Below, piece after piece: positions 2,291 to 15,978 of a DNA stretch of 25,412 bases (within the stretch, counting starts at the first letter, position 1; the number at the start of each line of letters is the position of its first letter). Under the pieces are notes generated by a model. That model had not been told where the DNA came from and made no database searches. It saw only the letters and a list, made by a program, of their open reading frames with translations. A program made the position numbers and the translations under genes. Source of the DNA: a virus; IMG/VR virus record IMGVR_UViG_3300030103_001836, positions 1-25,412 of that record; one strand, written 5' to 3'.

Positions 2291-2773
2291 ATGCCTTGGA
2301 AATTAGGTACAAAAACAATTAATTCGGGGAGAAGTTGGACAGATGCCAATGGTAATCAATATCCAAGTAATTGGTTAACACTTACTACCGATGCAGAAAA
2401 GAAGGCTGTAGGTTTAACGTGGGAAGCTGAACCAAAATCGTTTGACAACAGGTTCTATTGGTCAGCTGATGTTGCAAAAGATGTAGCAGACTTAAAAACA
2501 GTTTGGACAGCTAAGACAAAGGCAACAGCAGGAACGCTATTAGCACCTACTGATTGGTATATAGTACGCAAGGCAGAGGATGCTACAACAACTATTCCGA
2601 CAGATGTAGCAACCTATCGTGCGGCTGTACGTACAGCTTCTGGCAAGATTGAGACAGCAATAACAAATGCGGCTGACCATGCGGCTTTTGTAGCTTTGTG
2701 GGATGAGCCAGTAGACAGTGATGGCAACCCTACAGGCAACGCACCTATCAACGATTTTCCAGAGGAGATATAG
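2291..2773 (+). CDS. Tail-fibre-associated / fibre assembly-like protein
   Basis: This 160-residue soluble protein starts 10 nt after the fibre stop with a good Shine-Dalgarno (AGGAG at the fibre stop). The N-terminus has the pattern SGRSWTDANGNQYPSNW, often seen in small phage tail proteins. The middle contains the segment LLAPTDWYIVRKAE followed by IPTDVATYRAAVRTA, which recurs in phage tail-fibre assembly chaperones and DUF4376-like proteins, where residues around a DW..R motif are conserved. Its place directly behind a fibre gene supports a role in fibre folding or attachment, or as a tip protein. No catalytic motif or membrane segment is visible. The functional label is an inference; the coding call is firm. 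Confidence 0.65.
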   Translation: MPWKLGTKTINSGRSWTDANGNQYPSNWLTLTTDAEKKAVGLTWEAEPKSFDNRFYWSADVAKDVADLKTVWTAKTKATAGTLLAPTDWYIVRKAEDATTTIPTDVATYRAAVRTASGKIETAITNAADHAAFVALWDEPVDSDGNPTGNAPINDFPEEI

Positions 2774-2774
2774 G

Positions 2775-3326
2775 TTGCGACAAAATTGGCAAATGTGGAC
2801 AAGCGGTGTATCGCCAGAGACATTAGACCATATAACGAAACAAGCAGGAGCTGTTCAATTCCAAGACGCTAAAATATTTTCTGACGCAAAAAAAAATAAC
2901 AGAATAAGACGGTCACAAATTAAATGGCTAACGCATAATCAAACGATAAGAAACATCTTGTGGGAATACGTTCAAGAAGCAAATAGGAATGCCTTTGGGT
3001 TCGATGTGACTAACGTAGGAGACATTCAATATACTGAATATAATGCTACAGATGAGGGTCATTACGATTGGCACCATGACATACACTGGAGCCAAGACAA
3101 GGCATATGACAGAAAGCTATCTATCACTGTGCAATTAACAGATGGTTCTGGGTATGAGGGCGGTGATTTTCAATTTGGTGAAGTTGCTAATCCTGATACT
3201 GCTGCATCAAAAAAGTTAGGTACTGTTCTAATATTCCCTTCTTATTTGCAACATAAAGTCTCGCCTGTAACGAAAGGCAAACGAGTGAGTTTAGTTGGTT
3301 GGTTTGAAGGACCACGCTGGAAGTAA
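2775..3326 (+). CDS. 2-oxoglutarate/Fe(II)-dependent oxygenase (PKHD-type)
   Basis: The protein is 183 residues with a TTG start at 2775. A strong AGAGGAG at 2761-2767, eight bases upstream, decides this start over an in-frame ATG inside the preceding gene. The iron triad is visible as H100-x-D102 in YDWHHDIHW and H160 in YLQHKVSP; R170 in GKRVSLVGW fits the 2-oxoglutarate-binding arginine. Strand motifs LSITVQL and GGDFQF are typical of the double-stranded beta-helix fold. Similar enzymes sit beside tail-fibre genes in many marine phages, where substrates are mostly unknown; hydroxylation of a virion or host protein is one possibility. The length is normal for the small phage members. Oxygenase identity is strong, substrate unknown. 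Confidence 0.88.
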   Translation: MRQNWQMWTSGVSPETLDHITKQAGAVQFQDAKIFSDAKKNNRIRRSQIKWLTHNQTIRNILWEYVQEANRNAFGFDVTNVGDIQYTEYNATDEGHYDWHHDIHWSQDKAYDRKLSITVQLTDGSGYEGGDFQFGEVANPDTAASKKLGTVLIFPSYLQHKVSPVTKGKRVSLVGWFEGPRWK

Positions 3327-5690: not shown

Positions 5691-5719
5691 AATCTGGGGA
5701 CACTAAATTGCAGATCGCT

Positions 5720-5736
5720 GTGTTCATTTTGTGTTC
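5720..5736 (+). repeat. Paired GTGTTC arm-type repeat, left of the core
   Basis: GTGTTCATTTT is followed directly by GTGTTCATTAT; the two GTGTTC units start at 5720 and 5731, exactly 11 bases apart, so they lie on the same face of the helix. The same pair recurs on the other side of the attachment core. This is the arrangement expected for arm-type integrase binding sites. Confidence 0.6.
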
Positions 5737-5820
5737 ATTATTCAGGTGACTTTCAGTGTCGATAGGAGTAGTTTGGTGACGTACAAACTTAGGAAATATG
5801 TCGATGTGTGTCGTTCAAAT

Positions 5821-5847: not shown

Positions 5848-5892
5848 CTGTCACGCCAGAGGCCGCGAGTTCGAGTCTCGTCACTCCCGCCA
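5848..5892 (+). other. attP: attP core: 3' half of a tRNA-Asp(GTC) gene
   Basis: The segment reads as the 3' half of a tRNA. It begins with the anticodon loop CTGTCAC (anticodon GTC), then the 3' anticodon-stem strand GCCAG, variable loop AGGCC, T-arm GCGAG-TTCGAGT-CTCGT (all five pairs form, one a G-U), acceptor strand CACTCCC, discriminator G and CCA. The bases upstream (CCAGA) do not pair with GCCAG, and no 5' half with an acceptor GGGAGTG is present. So this is not a functional tRNA but the copy a tRNA-targeting phage carries to restore the gene after integration. The anticodon loop is a usual crossover position for tyrosine integrases. Confidence 0.88.
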
Positions 5893-5925: not shown

Positions 5926-5957
5926 ACCTCGGACAGCAATGTTCGGGGTCTTTTTTT
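5926..5957 (+). terminator. Rho-independent terminator after attP core
   Basis: A 9-bp stem ACCTCGGAC / GTTCGGGGT (two G-T pairs) with a six-base loop is followed by C and seven T residues. It would end rightward transcription from the lysis genes before it enters the integrase unit. It could also come from the bacterial tRNA terminator if identity with the host extends beyond CCA. Confidence 0.8.
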
Positions 5958-5974
5958 GTGCCAAAAACACGTTT

Positions 5975-5991
5975 GTGTTCGTTTTGTGTTC
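5975..5991 (+). repeat. Paired GTGTTC arm-type repeat, right of the core
   Basis: Two GTGTTC units start at 5975 and 5986, again 11 bases apart and separated by GTTTT. The pair has the same orientation as the pair at 5720-5736, and the two pairs flank the tRNA-derived core. Best read as integrase arm sites; the third copy near the terminase gene weakens an exclusive att role. Confidence 0.6.
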
Positions 5992-6009
5992 ATTTTGACT
6001 TGAGTAAAT

Positions 6010-6071: not shown

Positions 6072-6326
6072 ATGTATATTACAGGGCAGCGCATCTACTA
6101 CACTGGTGACATGGCAAATAGGTCAGGGTGGGGTACGGTAACACATGTACGTCCATGTCAGTTTTACCAACTTAATTATACACTCGAAATGATGGACGGT
6201 AGAATATTCAGTCTTACACCGTTTGAGATCACAGACAGTTTCAACGGTCAATCTACTTTTCGTTTTGTAACTAAAGAAAGTTATGACGAGTATCGTTCAG
6301 CTGCGATGGAGCAGTACCATGTCTAA
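6072..6326 (+). CDS. Small protein of unknown function upstream of integrase
   Basis: ATG at 6072 is chosen because GGAG at 6062-6065 is well placed; the in-frame ATG at 6060 lies upstream of this site. The product is 84 residues with a likely beta-rich fold: RIYYTGDMANRSGWGTVTHV, then YTLEMMDGRIFSLTPFEI. The TGDMAN.SG.G pattern is reminiscent of short plasmid and phage proteins of unknown function. It overlaps the integrase start by 8 bases and would be co-transcribed with it under the operator at 6010-6024. It could act in recombination directionality, but it lacks the winged-helix look of known excisionases. Function unknown. Confidence 0.7.
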   Translation: MYITGQRIYYTGDMANRSGWGTVTHVRPCQFYQLNYTLEMMDGRIFSLTPFEITDSFNGQSTFRFVTKESYDEYRSAAMEQYHV

Positions 6327-7470
6327 GCAACTAAAAGTATTCAAGCATAGAAATTATTGGGTGATAGATGCAAGACGTTTAGGTATGCATCAGAAGTTTG
6401 GTAATTATAAGACAGAAAGCGCAGCAAAAAAAGCAGCTGCTGAGCTTCTAGTAAAAGCAGACTTAGGTATTACAGAAAACACAACTTCTATCAAATTAGC
6501 TGACGCTGCTGCAAAAAAATATTTTGCACAATTACAACTCAAAGTTGATGCCGGCAAGATTGGCAAAGAACATTACAAAGATGCAGTTCGCTGTGTAAAA
6601 TATGTTTTAGACATCAAAATAAATAATATGCGTTTTGGGTCTTTACAGCTGCAAAAAATTGTGCAGCCAAAAAATGCAGAGCTGTTAGTCAACACATTTA
6701 GCATTGCTATTGAGAAGGGTAGCAACAGCAAATCACGCGCCGCTGCACGTTTAAAGATGGCAAAAGCATTTTTAAATTTTTGTCAGCTGCAAGGGTACAT
6801 CACAAACAATTTTTTAGACAAAGTAACACTAGGTCAAAGTTACGAATTATCTAGCCGCACAGATCGCGTAAAGAATTTTAGCAGTCAGACTATGCGTGAT
6901 GTGCTTGAAGTCGGTCTAAAAGGTGAAGCAGATAACTGGCGCGTCATGTTTCTTGTTGCTATGTACACCGGCATGCGCCAGGGCGAGATACGCGCATTGA
7001 CATGGGCAGATATCGACTTTGATGCAGGCGAGGTAGATATTAATAAAGCAGTAAAGCGTGACGGTGGTCATGTTATAGGCACAACAAAAACTAAGCGCGG
7101 TAATCGTGTTGCTGTGCTACCAGCTGACGCTATCCAAGAGCTGCGTAAGCTTCGTCTGAGTTCACGGTTTAGTGCTGATACAGATATCATTTTTGCAACT
7201 AACACTGGGCAGCCCAAGCAGCCTAAAACAATCCGCGAGCTAATGTATCGTATCCAAGAACGTACAGGCATCGATATTATCTGGAGTGACCTACGCCATT
7301 ACTTTGCCAGCCACATGATTACCCAGCTAGGCACAGACTGGGCAGAGATAGCTGCAAGTATGGGTCATACAAACAGCAACTTTACATATCAACAGTACGG
7401 ACACAGCATCCGTAACGCTGAGAAACAAAACCAGAAAAAAGCAGCTGCTGCTGCAATGTTAGGGGTGTAA
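6319..7470 (+). CDS. int: Tyrosine-family integrase
   Basis: The integrase has 383 residues from ATG 6319, supported by GGAG at 6308-6311. An N-terminal arm-binding-like domain covers about residues 1-60, a core-binding SAM-like domain about 60-175, and the catalytic domain about 190-370. Catalytic residues: R220 in YTGMRQGEIRALTW, a beta-hairpin lysine near K257/K259 (TTKTKRGNR), R326 in SDLRHYFASH, H350 in MGHTNSN, and the nucleophile Y360 in YQQYGH. The usual histidine of the HxxR box is replaced by S323, seen in some active recombinases. It should recombine attP with the host tRNA-Asp gene. It follows the attP region, as is normal for this class. Confidence 0.95.
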   Translation: MSKQLKVFKHRNYWVIDARRLGMHQKFGNYKTESAAKKAAAELLVKADLGITENTTSIKLADAAAKKYFAQLQLKVDAGKIGKEHYKDAVRCVKYVLDIKINNMRFGSLQLQKIVQPKNAELLVNTFSIAIEKGSNSKSRAAARLKMAKAFLNFCQLQGYITNNFLDKVTLGQSYELSSRTDRVKNFSSQTMRDVLEVGLKGEADNWRVMFLVAMYTGMRQGEIRALTWADIDFDAGEVDINKAVKRDGGHVIGTTKTKRGNRVAVLPADAIQELRKLRLSSRFSADTDIIFATNTGQPKQPKTIRELMYRIQERTGIDIIWSDLRHYFASHMITQLGTDWAEIAASMGHTNSNFTYQQYGHSIRNAEKQNQKKAAAAAMLGV

Positions 7471-7471
7471 C

Positions 7472-7885
7472 ATGGAGCCGCGTCTAATAGAAAAGTATAG
7501 AGTTGGTGGTGACATAAAAACACTGGGTGCGCATGAGACACGCTGGCAATTTGGTAACCATGAAATCCGTGTCCGGGTGCGCCGGGGTAACTGGCAATAT
7601 CACATGAACGCTGGTGCAAGAGTAACAGCAGAATATGATCCTGGTTTAAAAAGGTTTCCAGAATGGCTAGATGTACGCTGCCCAACTATAACAGATGACC
7701 AGCTGCCGAATGTTGTGGAATGGATGCGCTGTATACTGAAAGAAGACGCAGACACTAGATCATTTGATGTAAGTAACAAACGCTATCTGCCGCGCAAAAA
7801 AGAGTTCAGAGGGTCTAGTAGCAGATATAATATTATAACTAGAGAAATAGGTCAGCCGCAGCGTGTACAGTCATGGACTGATTAG
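7472..7885 (+). CDS. Hypothetical protein downstream of integrase
   Basis: This 137-residue protein starts one base after the integrase stop, with AGGGG about six bases upstream, so it is in the same transcript. It is basic with several tryptophans and has a probable beta segment (WQFGNHEIRVRVRRGNWQYHM). No membrane segment, HTH or catalytic motif is evident. I do not recognise the family. Its stop overlaps, tail to tail, the end of the leftward HTH gene by 4 bases. Confidence 0.65.
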   Translation: MEPRLIEKYRVGGDIKTLGAHETRWQFGNHEIRVRVRRGNWQYHMNAGARVTAEYDPGLKRFPEWLDVRCPTITDDQLPNVVEWMRCILKEDADTRSFDVSNKRYLPRKKEFRGSSSRYNIITREIGQPQRVQSWTD

Positions 7886-8109
7886 TTACCCAAGCTAAGA
7901 CCTTTTGAACCTACAGCAACGCCCGGAGCTTTTGTCTTCGGGCTTGTTATATTCTCAATATCTTCACGCCTAAAATAAATATAACGTCCATCTCTTATGG
8001 GTTCTATATTGTTACTGTCAGCAAAACGCATTGCCCGTTTTCGTGCTGTTTCAGTTGTCTGACCAAATAATAATTCTGCTGCTTGTTTTGTATTTATTAA
8101 TAATGACAT
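7882..8109 (-). CDS. Excisionase-like HTH DNA-binding protein
   Basis: This 75-residue protein reads leftward. Residues 5-55 form a MerR/excisionase-type winged helix-turn-helix: NTKQAAELLFGQ, ETARKRAMRFADSN, then the wing-like IRDGRYIYFRREDIENI. This is the HTH_17/Xis layout. AGGT lies about eight bases upstream of ATG and overlaps the stop region of the preceding gene. It is the last gene of the leftward recombination operon and converges on the integrase operon, so it would be expressed during lytic growth or induction. That fits a recombination directionality factor, although transcriptional regulation is an alternative. Confidence 0.75.
   Translation of the reverse strand: MSLLINTKQAAELLFGQTTETARKRAMRFADSNNIEPIRDGRYIYFRREDIENITSPKTKAPGVAVGSKGLSLGN
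7921..7950 (+). terminator. Possible terminator of the integrase operon
   Basis: GCCCGGAG / CTTCGGGC forms an 8-bp stem (one G-T pair) with loop CTTTTGT, 35 bases after the end of the integrase operon. The following TTGTTAT is a weak U-tract. It lies inside the 3' end of the convergent HTH gene. Confidence 0.45.
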
Positions 8110-10230: not shown

Positions 10231-10980
10231 TTATGCTTCATATGGAACTATTTCTAAGTCACGTAGGTCAGGTCTGAAAATGCTGCCTAGCACTGGACAT
10301 GCCCATTTTAGCTCGACACCAGTTTGTGTTTGTACATTGCCAAAACCCAGTGTTTTTGGAACATGCACTGTGTAGCGATTAAATTCTGGTTCTGGATATA
10401 AATAACCCCATAAATGCAATTCATCAGAAGTCATACAATAACATAAATTTTGAAAACAATTTTTATCCACGCCTTTATTGTAATAGTCTACATTGATAAT
10501 ATCTAGCTTGCTGGGCGTCCACCACGGCGTTTGTGGAAATCCTGTTTTTGCATATTCTTCTGCTGTAAAATCATACATAAATACGCCTATCTGCCTGGAG
10601 TATAAAGTACGCAAATAAACCATGTCACATTTAGTGACTTCAGTATTAGACATTTGCAGGCACAAACCGTACTCATATTTTCTGACTAATTGCGGATTAG
10701 TTGGGCAATAATTTGATATACTCCATTTGCCAATGATAGGATGTGGGTCTAATGGATATAATATTTCTGCGCTTCGGCAGCCTAGTATTTGTGCATATTC
10801 ATCCGCATCTTTACGTGTTAGGTGGATTTTGCCACTGCAATGTCGCGATAGCGTTTCTGGCGCTATACCTTTACGCCTGGCTACCTCTTTTTTCTCCATG
10901 CCAGTTTGTCTAATTTTCTTTGACAAATTGTTATACAATGTATCCATAATACTATCTTTGTCATGATTCGCATGTCGCAT
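10231..10980 (-). CDS. Phage repressor, XRE-type HTH with non-LexA C-terminus
   Basis: Leftward, 249 residues. ATG at 10980 is chosen because a strong GGGGAGGAA lies eight bases upstream. About residues 13-75 form an XRE/Cro-CI helix-turn-helix: NNLSKKIRQTGMEKKEVARR, then KGIAPETLSRHCSGKIHLTR. The rest (about 80-249) has no S24/LexA peptidase signature (no Ala-Gly cleavage site with Ser/Lys pair). It is rich in aromatic residues and cysteines (PWWTPSKLDIINVDYYN). It is divergent from a Cro-like gene across palindromic operators, the standard repressor position. Loss of the peptidase domain implies inactivation by an antirepressor or ligand rather than RecA-stimulated cleavage (inference). Confidence 0.82.
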   Translation of the reverse strand: MRHANHDKDSIMDTLYNNLSKKIRQTGMEKKEVARRKGIAPETLSRHCSGKIHLTRKDADEYAQILGCRSAEILYPLDPHPIIGKWSISNYCPTNPQLVRKYEYGLCLQMSNTEVTKCDMVYLRTLYSRQIGVFMYDFTAEEYAKTGFPQTPWWTPSKLDIINVDYYNKGVDKNCFQNLCYCMTSDELHLWGYLYPEPEFNRYTVHVPKTLGFGNVQTQTGVELKWACPVLGSIFRPDLRDLEIVPYEA

Positions 10981-11056
10981 TATAAATTCCTCCCCATAAC
11001 CATTCAAATATTTTGTTTATCAAGTCATGTATCGTCACGCGCCGACACAGACAGAC

Positions 11057-11073
11057 ATAATGAGTAACATTAT
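11057..11073. promoter_or_regulatory. Second inverted repeat in the repressor/Cro region
   Basis: ATAATG-AGTAA-CATTAT is a perfect inverted repeat with a 5-base centre, abutting the TTTGACA palindrome. It may be a second operator, for a different protein or a weaker site. Confidence 0.5.
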
Positions 11074-11091
11074 TTGACATATTTTGTCAAA
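11073..11091. promoter_or_regulatory. Main operator and divergent promoters, repressor/Cro
   Basis: TTTGACATATTTTGTCAAA is a perfect inverted repeat (7-bp arms, 5-base centre). It supplies a TTGACA -35 box on both strands: rightward toward the Cro-like gene (weak -10 TAATTT at 17 bases), and leftward toward the repressor. The core recurs, one base different, at 6010-6024. Confidence 0.7.
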
Positions 11092-11110
11092 ATAATTAAT
11101 TTCTGATGTT

Positions 11111-13505: not shown

Positions 13506-13646
13506 ATGTTTAAAAAACTATTACAGACATTCTTGCCATTTTGGTTCGGGACAAAAACACCAAGTCTTATAGAGACAGTCACTTTTCCAGCTAAATATGA
13601 CGCGCCAAAGAAACGCGGTAGACCTAAAAAGGCAGCTAATGGCTAA
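13506..13646 (+). CDS. AT-hook-like small protein (46 aa)
   Basis: ATG at 13506 has GGAA at 13496-13499 upstream; another in-frame ATG at 13494 abuts the terminator T-run. The 46-residue product has a hydrophobic N-terminal helix (FKKLLQTFLPFWFG) and a basic tail KKRGRPKKA that matches the AT-hook core (RGRP) which binds the minor groove of AT-rich DNA. It overlaps the terminase small subunit gene by 8 bases. It may help terminase DNA recognition, but that is speculative. Confidence 0.55.
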   Translation: MFKKLLQTFLPFWFGTKTPSLIETVTFPAKYDAPKKRGRPKKAANG

Positions 13647-14043
13647 ACGTATTACAAAAACAATGATGCAAGATATCGCTAACCGGCTAGCTGTAGGCGA
13701 GACATTGGTACAGATATGCAAGGACCCAGACATGCCAGCTTATCGGACTATCACGACAGCTGTTAATCGTGATGAGGAGCTGTATGAGATATATAGGCGA
13801 GGTCGTGTTATGCAAGCTGAATATTACAGTGACCATATTGTTGACCTGGCTACTGAGGAGCTTCCGCCATCGCTTGATGCAAAGGTATTGAATGCTGAGA
13901 TGCAGCGCAGGAAGTTGGAGATTGAAACATTGAAGTGGACGTTTGCACGTAACCAACCGTTCGGTATTCGTGACAAGAAAGAAGAAGCAGTCAATCACGG
14001 TAACATCACTATTAGCTGGGAAGGTCAGGTCCATGCTAACTAG
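13639..14043 (+). CDS. terS: Terminase small subunit
   Basis: 134 residues from ATG 13639 with AAAGG upstream. The N-terminal half is a helix-turn-helix type region: MMQDIANRLAVGETLVQICK, DPDMPAYRTITTAVNRDEEL, YEIYRRGRVMQAEYYSDHIVD. The C-terminal MQRRKLEIETLKWTFARNQP then FGIRDK is typical of small terminases of the HTH group, where RRKLEIETLKW precedes the P-x-x-YG/FG ending. It should recognise the packaging site and recruit the large subunit encoded about 0.7 kb downstream. Confidence 0.82.
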   Translation: MAKRITKTMMQDIANRLAVGETLVQICKDPDMPAYRTITTAVNRDEELYEIYRRGRVMQAEYYSDHIVDLATEELPPSLDAKVLNAEMQRRKLEIETLKWTFARNQPFGIRDKKEEAVNHGNITISWEGQVHAN

Positions 14044-14330: not shown

Positions 14331-14564
14331 ATATATATAAAACGTCCTGCCTGTTGCCTAGCTACGCGCGTGAGTCATACCCGGCGAGCGCTAGATTTTT
14401 AGTCTAGCAGTCGTTTGTTCTGCAACCTAGACCCTGCCTTGTTTTTTATGCTGCAATAATATTGTTGTGTTCGTTTTGTGTTCGTTTTTGTTGCTGCGAT
14501 TTACCTGACAGGCACCCCTACCACCCCCAGAAAGTGGGCGCCGATCCTATACGTATATTATACC
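14331..14564. other. Non-coding region before the large terminase block
   Basis: This 234-base gap contains a long-range GTTGC/GCAAC pair (14353-14357 with 14422-14426), a hairpin GCTAGA-TTTTTAG-TCTAGC (14390-14408) and a third GTGTTC pair (14467-14483). A promoter-like AT-rich TATACGTATATTATA lies near 14550. It could hold the late promoter or the packaging signal. No gene was found. Confidence 0.5.
14467..14483 (+). repeat. Third paired GTGTTC repeat
   Basis: Two GTGTTC units start at 14467 and 14478, 11 bases apart with GTTTT between, exactly like the pair at 5975-5991 and in the same orientation. With the following GTTTT/ATTTT the two 22-base stretches differ at one position. It lies about 8.5 kb from attP. 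Confidence 0.6.
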
Positions 14565-14759
14565 ATGCCAACAGTCTCTAACACTCGCACACTGCGTTAC
14601 ATTCCACACAGCGCAATCGAACAATACCAGCGAACAGGCTGGATAGCGTTGCATCGCATGCATGGTCATCACGGCGAGTATTCGACATTGATGGAAAAGA
14701 AAAATGAACATAGTAATACCGTACCACCCCAGGGCGTTACAGGCAGAATTACATCGTAG
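14565..14759 (+). CDS. Small conserved phage protein upstream of terminase
   Basis: ATG 14565 gives 64 residues (a GTG further upstream would lie inside the GTGTTC repeat). The core YIPHSAIEQYQRTGWIALHR followed by MHGHHGEYSTLMEKK recurs as a short protein immediately before large terminases in phages of alphaproteobacteria (recognised pattern: GW......HHG.YS.LM). It overlaps the terminase start by 56 bases in another frame. No Shine-Dalgarno is clear. Function unknown. Confidence 0.65.
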   Translation: MPTVSNTRTLRYIPHSAIEQYQRTGWIALHRMHGHHGEYSTLMEKKNEHSNTVPPQGVTGRITS

Positions 14760-15978
14760 TTTAGACGAGCATAGATGGGGCGTGATTGTATGCCATAGAC
14801 GTATGGGTAAGACAGTCATGGCGATCAATCATTTACTGCGTGCAGCGATTATGTGCGCTAACAAGAACCCTAGATACGCGTATTTAGCGCCTACATATCG
14901 CCAGGCAAAAGCAGTTGCATGGGATTATCTCAAGCAGTTTGCTGGTGGTATACCAGAAGTAAAGTTTCATGAGACTGAGCTGCGCTGTGATTTGCCTAAT
15001 GGGGCTAGGATAAATTTACTAGGGGCTGAGAACCCGGATAGTTTGAGAGGGATTTATTTAGACGGCTGCTTTATGGATGAAGTAGCTGACATGCCTGAGA
15101 GTGTATTTCCAGAAGTGATAAGACCGGCGCTATCTGATAGAAAGGGTTGGTGTTTTTTCGTAGGAACACCAAAGGGGCAGAATGCATTTTATGAGATGTA
15201 TGAGCAGGCTGTTATTAGCAGTGATTGGTATACGGCGGTACATCGAGCCAGTGAGACTGATATATTAGATGGCGGTGAGTTAGCTAGCGCTATGGAGACC
15301 ATGACAGCTGACCAGTATGCGCAGGAATATGAGTGCAGCTGGGTTGCTAATGTGCCAGGTGCTATTTTTGGTAAGGAGTGTCATGCGGCATTAGAAGAGG
15401 GGCGCATAGGCAGGGTTCCGTATGATAGAGGGTATAAGGTCGATACATTTTGGGACCTTGGTGTTGGCGATAGCACAGCTATTTGGTTTGTGCAAAGTAT
15501 CGGCAGGGCAGTGCATGTCATTGATTGTTATGAGTCCAGAGGTGAAGGGCTGCCGCATTATTGTAAGATACTTAATGCAAAAGAATATTTATATGGGGTG
15601 CATTACGCGCCACACGATATTGAAGTCAGAGAACTAGGCACTGGCAAAAGTAGGCGAGAAATAGCCTGGGATTTAGGATTGAATTTTAGGGTAGTACCAA
15701 AGCTGCCATTAGAGGACGGAATACATGCTGCGCAAATGGTTTTTGGTCGTTGTTGGTTTGATGCAGAAAAATGCAAATCGGGTTTGGACGCGTTGCGTCA
15801 ATATCATCGAGGGTATAACGAAAAAAATAGAGCCTTTCGTAATACGCCTGTACACGATTGGTCAAGCCACTTTGCAGATGCTTTTCGATATATGTCGATT
15901 GGATTACGAGAAACTAGGGCGCTGGGTAAACCGCCGCAAGCGCTAGCGGATATGGATTATAATCCATTTGCAGCATGA
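14704..15978 (+). CDS. terL: Terminase large subunit
   Basis: 424 residues; the packaging motor and nuclease. Walker A is HRRMGKT (31-37), Walker B IYLDGCFMDE with D125-E126, and the coupling motif is GTPKGQN (154-160). The nuclease domain shows D251 in FWDLGVGDSTA, D305 in YAPHDIE and D392 in HFADAFRY, the usual three acidic positions of the RNase H-like fold. No frame disruption. The stop overlaps the acetyltransferase start (ATGA). Confidence 0.95.
   Translation: MNIVIPYHPRALQAELHRSLDEHRWGVIVCHRRMGKTVMAINHLLRAAIMCANKNPRYAYLAPTYRQAKAVAWDYLKQFAGGIPEVKFHETELRCDLPNGARINLLGAENPDSLRGIYLDGCFMDEVADMPESVFPEVIRPALSDRKGWCFFVGTPKGQNAFYEMYEQAVISSDWYTAVHRASETDILDGGELASAMETMTADQYAQEYECSWVANVPGAIFGKECHAALEEGRIGRVPYDRGYKVDTFWDLGVGDSTAIWFVQSIGRAVHVIDCYESRGEGLPHYCKILNAKEYLYGVHYAPHDIEVRELGTGKSRREIAWDLGLNFRVVPKLPLEDGIHAAQMVFGRCWFDAEKCKSGLDALRQYHRGYNEKNRAFRNTPVHDWSSHFADAFRYMSIGLRETRALGKPPQALADMDYNPFAA

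Follow-up and report, generated by a model that had tools for sequence, protein, structure and literature searches.

Is the tRNA half beside the integrase gene of a marine podovirus its attachment site, and does the integrase have binding sites elsewhere on the phage genome? We addressed these questions in the IMG/VR record IMGVR_UViG_3300030103_001836, a viral contig of 25,412 bases that was analysed over its whole length (hereafter the window). An earlier reading of the letters, made without database searches (the sequence-only reading), had taken positions 5848-5892 for the phage attachment site (attP) of an excised or circular temperate podovirus. That this segment is attP of a temperate HTVC010P-type podovirus targeting tRNA-Asp(GTC) is well supported, because it matches host tRNA genes exactly, lies next to an integrase gene and between arm sites, and shares its layout with about 47 related attP records. 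The arm sites and a third arm pair, located at the terminase genes, are new with respect to that reading. Judging from sequence, attP, the arms and the third pair are probably sites of the integrase. The elements around attP are the following.

5848-5892, + strand: attP core, 45 bases, a tRNA-Asp(GTC) 3' half that runs from anticodon loop to CCA, CTGTCACGCCAGAGGCCGCGAGTTCGAGTCTCGTCACTCCCGCCA
5719-5739, + strand: left arm pair, TGTGTTCATTTTGTGTTCATT
5974-5994, + strand: right arm pair, TGTGTTCGTTTTGTGTTCATT
5926-5957, + strand: terminator-like hairpin with a run of T, between the core and the right arm
6319-7470, + strand: tyrosine integrase of lambda type, 383 amino acids, PF00589

We compared the core with bacterial tRNA genes, as the sequence-only reading had suggested. 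An exact scan for the 45-mer in one genome per species (84,980 species) returned seven matches, all in intact tRNA-Asp(GTC) genes that were each recognised by ARAGORN. Five are in single-cell or metagenome genomes of OCS116/PS1/Rhodobiaceae, where they have a common tRNA-Val/tRNA-Asp neighbourhood, and two are in Hyphomicrobiales. In the bacterial matches, identity runs from 5848, the first anticodon-loop base, to CCA (5892); related attP cores begin at the same tRNA position. Of the anticodon arm of the tRNA, the window carries just the loop and the stem's 3' strand. There is no 5' half, since the bases preceding the core (TGCCAGA) differ from the host 5' stem (GCTGGC). Neither ARAGORN nor Rfam reported a whole tRNA in the window. 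The earlier description of a 3' half lacking its 5' half is thus borne out, as is its adjacency to an integrase gene, which lies 426 bases downstream of the core, with phage genes on either side. Three further IMG/VR records contain an identical attP with identical flanks. Because phage DNA lies on both sides and the same joint is found in these other viral records, we read the joint as attP. The phage genes on both sides also agree with an excised form; the circular form proposed with it finds no support in a record that is classed as linear and whose ends do not overlap. The anticodon-loop bases 5848-5854 (CTGTCAC) probably constitute the 7-base-pair (bp) overlap.

Direct repeats of arm type flank the core on both sides. 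Each arm pair consists of tandem 7-mers, TGTGTTC, with a period of 11 bp, arranged like integrase arm sites. The left and right pairs match at 20 of 21 positions, and 60 shuffles reached at most 15. Relatives of the integrase yielded 74 loci, with arms that were readable in 48 records including the window. Throughout these 48 records the left and right arms carry an identical 7-mer, the motif varies among phages, and the arms are found at about -105 to -135 and +113 to +126 relative to the core start. The readable related cores are the 3' half of tRNA-Asp(GTC), tRNA-Glu(TTC) or, twice, tRNA-Trp(CCA), beginning at the anticodon loop (the tRNA types were read by eye from the anticodon). Hairpins similar to that of the window, also judged by eye, are present in L067, L139 and L189. 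The same arm motif, with very similar integrase N-terminal domains, can be paired with tRNA-Asp or with tRNA-Glu, e.g. in L067 and L164 or in L168 and L169. Hence, the specificities for arm and core are separable and can be exchanged separately.

The integrase itself has a strong match to PF00589 (E = 8.7e-23, 81.4 bits for a curated cut-off of 27.1), and residues R220, R326 and Y357 are invariant in the alignment with its relatives (A1). The first His of the HxxR motif is replaced by Ser in the window (IWSDLRH, residues 322-327) and by Gly in the A1 relatives. This His is a secondary feature of the active site and is known to vary. In the structural model (mean predicted local distance difference test score 77.9, predicted template modelling score 0.51, poor around residues 338-365), the N-terminal domain has three strands plus a helix, and structure comparison matches the model to full-length lambda Int. 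Partial Mantel tests associated the arm motif with the N-terminal domain when the catalytic domain was controlled for (r = 0.34, reached in 0 of 2000 permutations); the reverse test gave r = 0.05 for the catalytic domain (425 of 2000). Furthermore, integrases that differ mainly in the N-terminal domain carry different motifs. The terminase small subunit, TerS, was considered as reader of the motif and rejected, as it can be 96-100% identical between phages with different motifs. For example, L040 and L042 have 100% identical TerS, with motifs TGTACAC and TGTTAAC, respectively. The motif thus tracks the N-terminal domain of the integrase and not TerS.

Besides the attP arms, the window contains only one tandem pair of its motif, 8.6 kilobases (kb) away from attP. 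It lies in the following context.

14466-14483, + strand: third arm pair, TGTGTTCGTTTTGTGTTC, in noncoding DNA between terS and terL
13597-14043, + strand: terS, terminase small subunit (phrog_1482, E = 2.9e-22)
14704-15978, + strand: terL, terminase large subunit of HTVC010P type
14513-14528, + strand: conserved C-rich box, downstream of the third pair
14548-14557, + strand: conserved AT-rich element with central CGTA, TATACGTATA, a palindrome, promoter- or cos-like

Ten HTVC010P-type phages provided both an arm motif and a region upstream of terL to compare. All 10 have their own motif as a pair upstream of terL, with eight motifs represented, and foreign motifs were found in none; within this set, a single arm supplied the motif of L097, and L044 is closely related to L167. 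Phages with the motif CAGTCCA encode unrelated TerL and portal proteins, yet they have the pair directly behind terS, in opposite orientation. The third pair is followed by the C-rich box at 44-48 bases and by CGTA at 84-86 bases in most phages. In a second group of phages these distances are about 57 and about 95, i.e. one helical turn further.

We rejected the possibility that every integrase-bearing relative has a third pair. The pair is missing from six relatives whose integrase is of another type; three of these six, L086, L092 and L101, show readable repeats beside int and none of them upstream of terL. The int loci of L092 and L101 (L228 and L229, HTVC010P-type) contain tandem TTTGGATAACA repeats beside int. 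There is no arm pair at terL in HTVC010P, which has no annotated integrase, or in HTVC203P. Separately, the contig L028, which comes from another sample and is 98.9% identical, has its first base exactly at the start of the palindrome TATACGTATA (window 14548); this may point to a genome end (cos). When fixed genome ends at the third site were considered, no terminal repeat was found in HTVC010P.

Could the pairs have another function? They might be operators of a phage repressor, or of another regulator of int and the late genes, and flank the core because int is controlled there. The third pair is near a promoter-like element, the window holds a Cro/C1-type repressor candidate, and regulators with scattered operators, of the integrase fold and others, exist in prophages. 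However, a scan found no pair in the repressor/cro intergenic region (11008-11110), every core is flanked on both sides by pairs at nearly constant distance, and the motif covaries with the integrase N-terminal domain, down to integrases that differ mainly there. We therefore regard operators as unlikely. The third pair might instead be a functionless leftover of an old attP duplication, as three copies of one sequence in a single genome would suggest. But its sequence has followed that of the arms through at least eight motifs, in place and between otherwise conserved flanks, and it recurs at terS in another backbone, which makes this quite improbable. Its location in the terS-terL interval, next to a conserved element resembling a palindrome, would also fit a cos or pac packaging site read by TerS and unrelated to the integrase; given that near-identical TerS proteins go with different motifs and that the motif is the one of the same phage's attP arms, we see very little room for this. 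Finally, that the record is an assembly artefact joining the attL and attR of a prophage is hardly credible. In its favour, there is no known integrated form in which the two joints could be compared; against it, three other records have the same joint and flanks, and host DNA lies on neither side.

If these elements are integrase sites, the integrase (6319-7470) would recombine the core with the anticodon loop of the host tRNA-Asp(GTC) gene, with a crossover presumably within this loop. The 3' half carried by the phage would restore the host tRNA on integration, and the phage-borne hairpin (5926-5957) would end the rebuilt tRNA transcript. The N-terminal domain would read the tandem 7-mer arms on both sides, as suggested by their layout and by the way motif and domain covary. 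This integrase would also bind the third pair between terS and terL, which keeps a fixed helical phase with the promoter- or cos-like element. There, we conjecture, it would act on the late promoter or on packaging initiation and most likely couple the integration state to late transcription or to packaging start; we give a regulatory action at the third pair roughly an even chance. Extended to a large clade of marine temperate podoviruses, this would be a second role of the integrase, controlling late transcription or packaging start according to the integration state, through a third pair that stays in step with the integrase's own changing DNA specificity, and here too the chances seem evenly balanced. 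If the integrase does bind the third pair, the enzyme that integrates or excises the phage would be tied directly to the packaging genes. We found nothing in open papers on integrase sites at terminase genes and no precedent there for such a link between lysis and lysogeny.

Several observations weigh against this picture. The sequence-only reading had proposed looking for prophages with this core as attL and attR; neither these nor an integrated copy appeared in two scans made without a positive control, one of 18 genomes from the OCS116 order and one of 385 Alphaproteobacteria. The Mantel permutations leave some effects of shared descent in place. In L045, the units of the right arm each differ by one mismatch from its third pair. 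The hybrid record G001, which has the same integrase module, shows no third pair; this record is incomplete and stops before the place where the pair would be expected, supposing that the shared module extends further. Finally, the tetranucleotide correlation of the window is 0.56-0.60 with a Methyloligella-like (Hyphomicrobiales) genome versus 0.39-0.41 with OCS116, in a comparison covering small parts of four host genomes only. By composition the backbone of G001 fits OCS116 best (0.70).

These results bear on the host. Among the 385 Alphaproteobacteria, the exact core is present only in the OCS116 genome used as centre, and 91 others have it with one to three mismatches; in the OCS116 order, 5 of 18 genomes have it exactly. 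Host prediction from the core, which that reading had proposed, works and points to OCS116/PS1-type bacteria, but it resolves no further than a few clades, because two Hyphomicrobiales share the core and the composition fits one of them better. We thus narrow the predicted host to OCS116/PS1-type Alphaproteobacteria or the two Hyphomicrobiales.

The attP region is part of a module that is shared with a different phage backbone.

3313-11873, no strand assigned: lysis/attP/int/repressor module, 8.6 kb, 98.6% identical in a different podovirus backbone

Three records, G001 (35.7 kb), L009 and L010, share the window from 3313 to at most 12028 at 98.5-99.7% identity (this set is also listed as L024, L009 and L010). 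On the other side of 3313 they have another backbone; the joint is sharp and coincides with the end of the 2OG-Fe(II) oxygenase gene, and the portal of G001 is nearest to that of pelagiphage Hodr. The joint is unlikely to be an assembly error because it is present in all three. Of the oxygenase gene in the window, these records retain no more than the final 14-15 bases, which suggests a transfer from a window-like donor. The oxygenase gene adjoins tail genes in the window (2718-3326), and G001 has its own diverged copy elsewhere (L024 10617-11180). Marine phages that combine near-identical with divergent regions are known (PMC3861242). When other viral contigs were scanned for an exact match to the window's sequence spanning position 3313, none had it. 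Hence, the left part of the window depends on a single assembly; L028 and L029 back the right part.

TerL, the head-tail connector (portal) and the capsid are related to those of HTVC010P. The window also encodes a GH108 endolysin and two candidate regulators.

10231-11007, - strand: Cro/C1-type repressor candidate (lysogeny control)
7882-8109, - strand: small helix-turn-helix protein, weak excisionase candidate (HTH_17 below cut-off, E = 0.0055)

The attP allows uncultured phages of ocean bacteria to be linked to hosts, and the pairs of motif and N-terminal domain from 29 distinct integrases form a natural data set on the evolution of arm-binding specificity.

In lambda, the arm sites lie within about 240 bp of attP. 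The window system resembles that of lambda (PDB 1z1b, 1z1g, 5j0n) in the N-terminal domain of three strands plus a helix and in the direct-repeat arms that flank the core. Unlike lambda, it has a further pair 8.6 kb away between terS and terL, and its core is a tRNA half. Pairs of attP and tRNA from marine phages, some of them HTVC010P relatives linked to SAR11, have been used for host prediction (Mizuno et al. 2013, PMC3861242). The main text of that work mentions neither arm sites nor terminase sites, and the target in the window differs from its pairs in being a tRNA-Asp of OCS116/PS1 or Hyphomicrobiales type. The likeness to HTVC010P-type pelagiphages amounts to about 56-58% identity in TerL and about 57-60% in the portal, whereas HTVC010P itself lacks both an annotated integrase and the arm pair at terL. 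A tyrosine-recombinase fold serves in prophage gene control in MrpR (PDB 8a0a) and SroF (9rd5, 9rgl), according to the titles of these entries. The fold matches to these regulators are weak, and the window protein is the integrase itself, encoded beside attP and with a conserved active-site tyrosine region.
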